From contig CP046866.1 in the NCBI GenBank assembly GCA_009789175.1, forward strand, positions 2,170,001 through 2,234,000: a stretch of DNA of 64,000 bases. The letters run 5' to 3'. The position numbers and the translations under genes were made by a program. Of this stretch, positions 16,375 to 60,481 are shown in pieces; positions within the stretch are counted from its first letter, which is position 1, and the number at the start of each line of letters is the position of its first letter. The notes under the pieces are model-generated. The model searched no databases. It saw only the letters and a program-made list of their open reading frames with translations, and was not told the origin of the DNA. The DNA comes from Salinibaculum litoreum (lineage in GTDB: Archaea > Halobacteriota > Halobacteria > Halobacteriales > Haloarculaceae).

Positions 16375-16605
16375 ATGGTTCAAGCGTACATCATGGTGAA
16401 AGCACTGACTGGCGAAGCGGACCGACTCAAAGACAACATCGAGGCCATCGACGGCGTCGAACGCTCGCACATCGTCGCGGGCGATGTCGACCTGATTACC
16501 GTCGTCGACGTTGCCTCGCCATCGGCGGTAAAGGACGTCGCTGCCACCGAAATTCAGTCAGTAGAGGGTGTCGAGGACACACAGACGTATATTTCGATGG
16601 ACTGA
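16375..16605 (+). CDS. stand-alone RAM (Lrp/AsnC ligand-binding) domain protein
   Basis: 76 residues, RAM domain only, clearly paralogous to the product of 15349-15582 (MVxAxIMVK, AIDGVExxHxVAG, GVxDTxTYIxxD in both). Its ATG abuts the trkA stop codon with no gap, so the two are one transcript and probably one translational unit. This argues for a partner role in K+ regulation, perhaps as ligand-binding subunit; that role is inferred from position only. Confidence 0.85.
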   Translation: MVQAYIMVKALTGEADRLKDNIEAIDGVERSHIVAGDVDLITVVDVASPSAVKDVAATEIQSVEGVEDTQTYISMD

Positions 16606-16611
16606 GACTAC

Positions 16612-16674
16612 TTTTTTCGCCGTCGGGTCTCCGGGCGCGCCTGTCGGCGCGCACCTGAACCCTCGGCGAAAAAA
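16612..16674. terminator. long hairpin with U-tract on both strands (bidirectional terminator)
   Basis: A perfect 11-bp inverted repeat TTTTTTCGCCG (16612-16622) and CGGCGAAAAAA (16664-16674). Inside it are GGGT/ACCC and GCGCGC/GCGCGC, so about 63 nt fold into one rod. The run of six T lies 6 nt after the RAM gene stop on the plus strand, and another run of six T is read on the minus strand after the DUF5813-like gene. A second hairpin GCGGCC/GGCCGC follows at 16695-16710. The remainder up to 16833 shows no gene. Confidence 0.6.
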
Positions 16675-16833
16675 CATAGTGAAAAAGGCTGCTCGCGGCC
16701 GGTAGGCCGCTCGCAGTTGCTATCGTCGCCTCTCCACCACCGCACCGCTACGCAATAGCAGTCCGGCCCTTCCCCATCTCGCGTGGTCTCGCGCACCAGC
16801 GCTCGACACACGGTCGCGGCCACGTCGGAATCC

Positions 16834-45513: not shown

Positions 45514-45649
45514 AGCATCCGCGCGCCGGAGGCGCGCGGTTCACTTCACGCGAACGAGCGACGCGAGTGAGCGTGAAGGTCGTTTTTGTACTAAATTTTT
45601 GCGAGGAGAGGTCGCGGCTCGGCCGCGACCCGACGAAGTAAAAATTTAG
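45514..45649. repeat. structured repeat element, copy 1
   Basis: 136 nt, paired with 60335-60481. Four conserved blocks in the same order: AGCATCCG; GTTCACTTCACGCGA; GCGTGAAG ... GTTTTTGTACTAAATTTTT (then GCGA); AAAATTTAG. Between them lie three hairpins with differing loops: GCGCGCC/GGCGCGC (45521-45537), TTCACGC/GCGTGAA, and GGTCGCGG/CCGCGACC inside the outer arms CTAAATTTTT/AAAAATTTAG. T-tracts are read on both strands, so it can end etfA and pitA transcripts. The terminal TTTAG, read on the minus strand, contains the TAA stop of pitA. Confidence 0.8.
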
Positions 45650-60334: not shown

Positions 60335-60481
60335 AGCATCCGCCGAGCAGAGCGAGGCGGTTCACTTCACGCGACCGTCGGAGACGGGAGCGTGAAGACA
60401 GTTTTTGTACTAAATTTTTGCGAATGGGGGTGCCCACAGCGAACAGGGTGAGCGAGGACACCCTCTGAAGTGAAAATTTAG
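60335..60481. repeat. structured repeat element, copy 2
   Basis: 147 nt, same block order as 45514-45649: AGCATCCG; GTTCACTTCACGCGA; GCGTGAAG ... GTTTTTGTACTAAATTTTT (then GCGA); AAAATTTAG. The loops between the conserved blocks differ (CCGTCGGAGACGGGA in hairpin 2; a GGGTG/CACCC stem within hairpin 3). Located between the DUF5807-like gene and arlJ, both on the minus strand. The final TTTAG, read on the minus strand, contains the TAA stop of arlJ, as in copy 1 for pitA. Confidence 0.8.

Follow-up and report, generated by a model that had tools for sequence, protein, structure and literature searches.

Transcription termination in archaea is thought to require little beyond a U tract. In M. 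maripaludis, aCPSF1 binds efficiently only where there are two U tracts, each U4 or longer, and such sites also show the highest termination (PMC8716108); in an H. volcanii reporter the sequence T5C terminates 95% of transcripts (PMC7237163). The element described here is a member of an extensive family of folded DNA repeats, not catalogued before, that lie exactly at gene ends of salt-loving archaea. Judging from the arrangement of its sequence, each gene-end cassette of about 135-150 bp probably functions as a two-way transcription terminator.

An earlier note had reported two copies of a structured repeat in the window (the whole stretch of 64,000 nucleotides analysed), and both are present at those positions (Table 1), on the same strand and with every named block. 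Both copies contain the 23-mer GTTTTTGTACTAAATTTTTGCGA, and no exact repeat in the window is longer; when the window was Markov-shuffled 20 times, one repeated 19-mer turned up in total. The last block of both copies, which reads CTAAATTTT on the minus strand, includes the stop codon of the adjoining minus-strand gene. Across the 3.73 Mb genome, these two copies are the only representatives of the GTTTTTGTACTAAATTTTTGCGA subtype at up to three mismatches. Another family member in the window, the third, has a different core and lies next to an Lrp-like gene; in L007 and L040, what appears to be the same gene end bears an element of the CTAAA subtype. Subtypes differ at this one gene end across genera. 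In many copies (L017, L019, L084, L248), a G-rich stretch with a loosely repeated GCGGT is found just upstream of AGCATCCG and may belong to the element.

Table 1. Family members in the window and relatives bounded by gene-end duplications.
Feature	Location	Strand	Context
Copy 1, whole element	45514..45649	+ (better-folding strand)	between etfA (+) and chlorite dismutase/ABM gene (-)
Copy 1, hairpin C	45519..45539	+	CCGCGCGCC-GGA-GGCGCGCGG, preceded by AGCATCCG
Copy 1, hairpin B	45544..45578	+	CTTCACGC ... GCGTGAAG, GA/GA internal loop
Copy 1, GTTTTTGTACTAAATTTTTGCGA	45582..45604	+	two T5 tracts within 18 nt; hardly varies within subtype
Copy 1, outer stem CTAAATTTTTGC / GTAAAAATTTAG	45591..45649	+	encloses hairpin A (45610-45630)
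Copy 1, TAA stop of chlorite dismutase/ABM gene	45646..45648	-	within terminal CTAAATTTTT; U5 one nt later on - strand
Copy 2, whole element	60335..60481	+	between FlaJ-like gene (-) and DUF5807 gene (-)
Copy 2, hairpin C	60340..60360	+	
Copy 2, hairpin B	60365..60397	+	
Copy 2, GTTTTTGTACTAAATTTTTGCGA	60401..60423	+	
Copy 2, outer stem and hairpin A	60410..60481	+	right arm GTGAAAATTTAG at 60470-60481
Copy 2, TAA stop of FlaJ-like T2SSF gene	60478..60480	-	inside element end
Third family member	16606..16724	-	other core TTTTTCACTATGTTTTTT; flush with TGA 16603-16605 of + strand Lrp-like gene ending ...DTQTYISMD
3'-end direct repeats of 31-159 bp, element brings new stop	own genome: L166, L212, L215, L216, L229, L230, L233, L239, L244		
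3'-end direct repeats	other genomes: L116/L188, L119, L120, L192		

The subtype with GTACTAAATTTTT was found, at up to three mismatches, in 27 of 394 genomes of the order, mostly in the host's own family, while a reversed control pattern gave almost no matches; these order-wide matches bear out the earlier suggestion of a wider haloarchaeal family. A 17-mer of the 23-mer matched named archaeal contigs from Halorientalis, Haloarcula and a Haloarculaceae genome. Several bacterial matches to the 17-mer, as well as a single match among viral contigs, were discarded as chance. A four-T variant, TACTAAATTTTGCC, occurs in 40 of 121 genomes of family f7, which from context we take to be Natrialbaceae-like. 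Comparing orthologous gene ends, instead of searching with the motif, revealed that the CTAAA block marks one subtype among several: the family has a common plan (hairpin C, hairpin B, T5-N8-T5, hairpin A, A5) built around differing cores. By inspection of the printed gene ends, this plan was read with other cores at the flaJ end in 16 of 27 genomes examined and at the chlorite dismutase gene end in about half of 18 genomes. A general pattern, TTTTTNNCNNANNTTTTT, matched 55 times in the host genome with one mismatch allowed, against 14 matches for its reversed control. A search of Rfam 15 returned no family above the curated threshold (best E 0.22, under the gathering score), and searches of the open-access literature with the core sequences gave nothing relevant.

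Two further features of the family deserve mention. The copies with a AGCGTAGA core at L206, L207, L209 and L211 of the host genome look like a recently mobile subfamily. Recurring extra hairpin modules (e.g., GTGCGAACGGGCG...CGCCCGTGAGCA) are present inside hairpin A in L009, L030, L043 and L054, as well as in L024 and L026, and ahead of hairpin B in L013, L082 and L085; these insertions suggest nested palindromic elements.

The hairpins of the two window copies differ in sequence yet remain paired, as had been noted, and the proposed selection on pairing is upheld by compensatory changes in hairpins A and B well in excess of shuffled expectations. At f7 gene ends, a set that is mostly thermosome and aligns gap-free, hairpin A contains 13 cells changed on both sides versus 4.0+-1.3 when shuffled, and hairpin A plus the outer stem comprise 98.4% paired cells. 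For hairpin B of the CTAAA subtype, 31 both-side changes were counted versus 10.8+-2.9 shuffled, with the arms set by position, not complementarity, and a few copies one out of register. The outer arms also vary jointly between subtypes: CTAAA/TTTAG, CCAC(G)/(G)GTGG, GTA(GA)/(GG)TAC, GCACG/CGTGC and CGA(GC)/(GG)TCG. This co-change alone is no proof of pairing, as it is equally expected if both strands need the same signal ahead of T5. The plus strand is the better fold in 47 of 49 copies. Triloops account for 122 of 164 loops, and G-U pairs for 2 of 175 cells in the hairpin B arms, which for this count were picked by complementarity. Such scarcity of G-U in hairpin B is what a need for pairing in DNA, or in both strands, would produce, and together with the triloops it fits DNA palindromes or both-strand pairing better than a one-strand RNA. 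A kink-turn reading of the GA-rich loop was rejected by inspection, as the bulge is on the wrong side.

In every one of the 49 copies, which adjoin roughly two dozen different genes, the distance from stop codon to element end is at most 14 nt; in this count genes were called by codon composition, the call at L038 is weak, and orthologues are not independent. The offset is +1 in 32 copies, where the stop falls inside C-TAA-ATTTT (C-TGA in copies with a TTCAG arm); the remaining offsets are -5 (9 copies), -14 (4 copies) and -6/-7 (4 copies). Only the four at -6/-7 depart from the reading frame of the +1 stop, leaving 45/49 in frame. Element-free orthologues end at the same residue (G445 FlaJ at ...FLSI, dismutase at ...HVFLA), which indicates that the element is flush with natural gene ends and has not truncated these genes. 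In f7, where the copies lie at the thermosome gene and at a second gene, most obey the same stop rule, as do other subtypes and genera, where the stop is usually 7-14 nt from A5. The thermosome end bears elements of differing subtypes in L246 (own genome), L074, L080 and f7. Two relatives in the host genome abut the 3' ends of tRNA-Ile and tRNA-Gly, with T5 about 7 nt beyond. More generally, the window shows an excess of T4 runs directly behind stop codons (21/83 at 0-60 nt versus 7/83 at 60-120 nt). At L168 and L172 of the host genome, paired elements stand head to head between genes, and at L168 each convergent gene has its own flush element. The earlier note had thus anticipated the selection on pairing, the wider family and the terminator and mobile options, but had missed the flush stop codons, the covarying subtypes and the third member.

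The reading as a two-way terminator is drawn from U5-N8-U5 behind hairpin B combined with a U5 after the stop or tRNA on the other strand. On the plus strand the order is hairpin C, hairpin B and U5-N8-U5, i.e., a hairpin followed by two U tracts, and the right end is the adjoining gene's own stop, with U5 at once after it on that gene's strand; the tracts on both strands fall in the U4-U7 range expected of U-tract terminators, and the element lies directly downstream of genes. The flush gene's transcript would then end in the U5 that follows its stop, and RNAs from the opposite side, whether convergent read-through or antisense, would end at the hairpin and double U tract, a combination that may represent the type of site bound by the archaeal termination nuclease aCPSF1/FttA. 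The family has, in addition, spread to new gene ends. The relatives at tRNA ends favour termination, since translation is not at issue there. The hairpin-then-U-tract order holds on the plus strand (hairpin B, GTTTTT); against this reading, on the minus strand the flush gene's U5 precedes hairpin A, unlike in a classic intrinsic terminator. Left neighbours are 28 convergent versus 19 tandem, so that not every copy has an evident plus-strand transcript for it to stop, and on this ratio a pure convergent-gene terminator was rejected. In addition, termination alone leaves the three hairpins unexplained, since a simple U5 would suffice in haloarchaea; that they contribute to termination is something we only infer.

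Several observations on how the family spreads bear on a second explanation, which we regard as rather unlikely: that these are small mobile palindromic DNA elements, REP/SMR-like, that moved as single-stranded hairpin DNA and are harmless only when flush with stops, with any terminator effect incidental. The AGCGTAGA subtype is dispersed in the host genome as copies of about 190-205 bp whose flanks are unrelated; the closest of them share 94-97% identity. Eleven relatives in the host genome are bounded by direct repeats, 31-159 bp long, of the host gene's 3' end, whereas none of 5000 random window sites reaches a score of 30. These eleven mostly have the opposite orientation to the gene, in the order gene end, stop, element, gene-end copy. 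Similar duplications exist in G445 (etfA), in two g5 species (dismutase gene) and in g8, and G445, of the same genus, lacks both window copies. At L235 (G000:C1:2703836-2705392), ten identical tandem units of 171 bp, each the gene 3' end plus a T5-N8-T5 element, are followed by a final gene-end copy; the apparent g8 orthologue (L098) has a single such duplication. The better folding of a single strand would also suit movement as hairpin DNA, and bacterial GTAG REPs likewise supply TAG stops (PMC3733652). Random insertion with purifying selection, however, predicts mostly outlying copies in 3' spacers, and none of the 49 lies beyond the 14 nt limit. Orthologous gene ends (flaJ, thermosome and dismutase) also retain some subtype across genera, and a search for the Y1 transposase (PF01797, RAYT) found no match in the host genome, although control genomes were positive. 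The reported lack of a flanking target duplication holds for copies 1 and 2 at the threshold used, which likewise speaks against the mobile-element explanation, but at flaJ a weak possible remnant qualifies it: 13 of 16 positions past the element agree with the final codons and stop of the G445 gene, which has no element, a likeness that may hint at an old duplication. To our knowledge, no known transposase accounts for gene-end duplications this long.

These observations can be joined with the terminator reading in a self-spreading terminator that inserts at gene 3' ends, duplicates 30-160 bp, brings an in-frame stop together with a two-way terminator, and is kept across genera to punctuate genes, its stems and outer arms evolving in concert. 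We offer this possibility tentatively.

It is considerably less probable that the element acts as a 3'-UTR RNA element, or as an antisense small RNA, that governs how translation of the flush gene terminates or how stable its mRNA is. The stop codon does sit in the base of the outer stem, and on the plus strand the first pair after U5 is G.U, not A.C, and GA/GA internal loops are present. However, it is the antisense strand of the flush gene that folds better, relatives adjoin tRNA genes, visual inspection upstream revealed no conserved promoter-like box, and both the paucity of G-U pairs in the hairpin B arms and the Rfam result argue against it. Among the options in the earlier note, bidirectional terminators thus gain support from U tracts on both strands and gene-end placement, and a mobile palindromic element from dispersed copies and gene-end duplications; a small RNA is possible but lacks specific support or a convincing Rfam match. 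A two-copy coincidence or functionless local duplication, for which the restriction of the exact subtype to two copies in the host genome might speak and which the earlier note had named as the outcome that would refute its proposal, can be dismissed, as further copies across the order (with almost none for the reversed control), compensatory changes and stop-codon phasing were all found.

If the terminator reading is true, haloarchaea carry specialised, heritable gene-end insulators, in which a cassette that on paper blocks both directions turns over by gene-end duplication. Its natural variants would allow tests of hairpins, of one versus two U tracts and of stop spacing in termination.

Compared with known systems, the element resembles the Haloquadratum SMRs, PATEs and MITEs (PMC3119063) in being small, non-coding, palindromic and haloarchaeal, but it is located at gene ends, whereas SMR-A nests in IS605-type elements (PMC3119063). 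The whole element has no terminal inverted repeats (left AGCATCCG versus right AAATTTAG), an inverted repeat bounding hairpin A only, and identity with PATE/IS605 or SMR elements was rejected, as a comparison with their published descriptions (PMC3119063) found no defining feature in common. With REP/BIME/REPIN sequences (GTAG- or CGTC-tagged, RAYT-associated) it shares dispersed palindromes near gene 3' ends; it differs in its multi-hairpin structure of about 140 bp, its T5/A5 tracts, its stop in CTAA and a genome in which no Y1 transposase was found. The GTAG/CGTC tag is absent in both copies, where that end reads ACCAGCATCCG and GAGAGCATCCG, and neither is a 20-40 bp palindrome. Bacterial intrinsic terminators, including bidirectional ones, are matched on the plus strand by the GC-rich hairpin B and a GUUUUU that begins within 3-4 nt of it, but here the host is archaeal and the copies form a dispersed homologous family, not independent terminators. 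Archaeal U-tract terminators (aCPSF1/FttA-dependent; Haloferax volcanii T-stretch) are alike in having T5 tracts just past stops and tRNA ends and, on one strand of the element, two U tracts within 18 nt. In contrast to them, the element, known from sequence, is a conserved three-hairpin cassette common to many genes and genera, with U tracts on both strands and a stop codon within the cassette.
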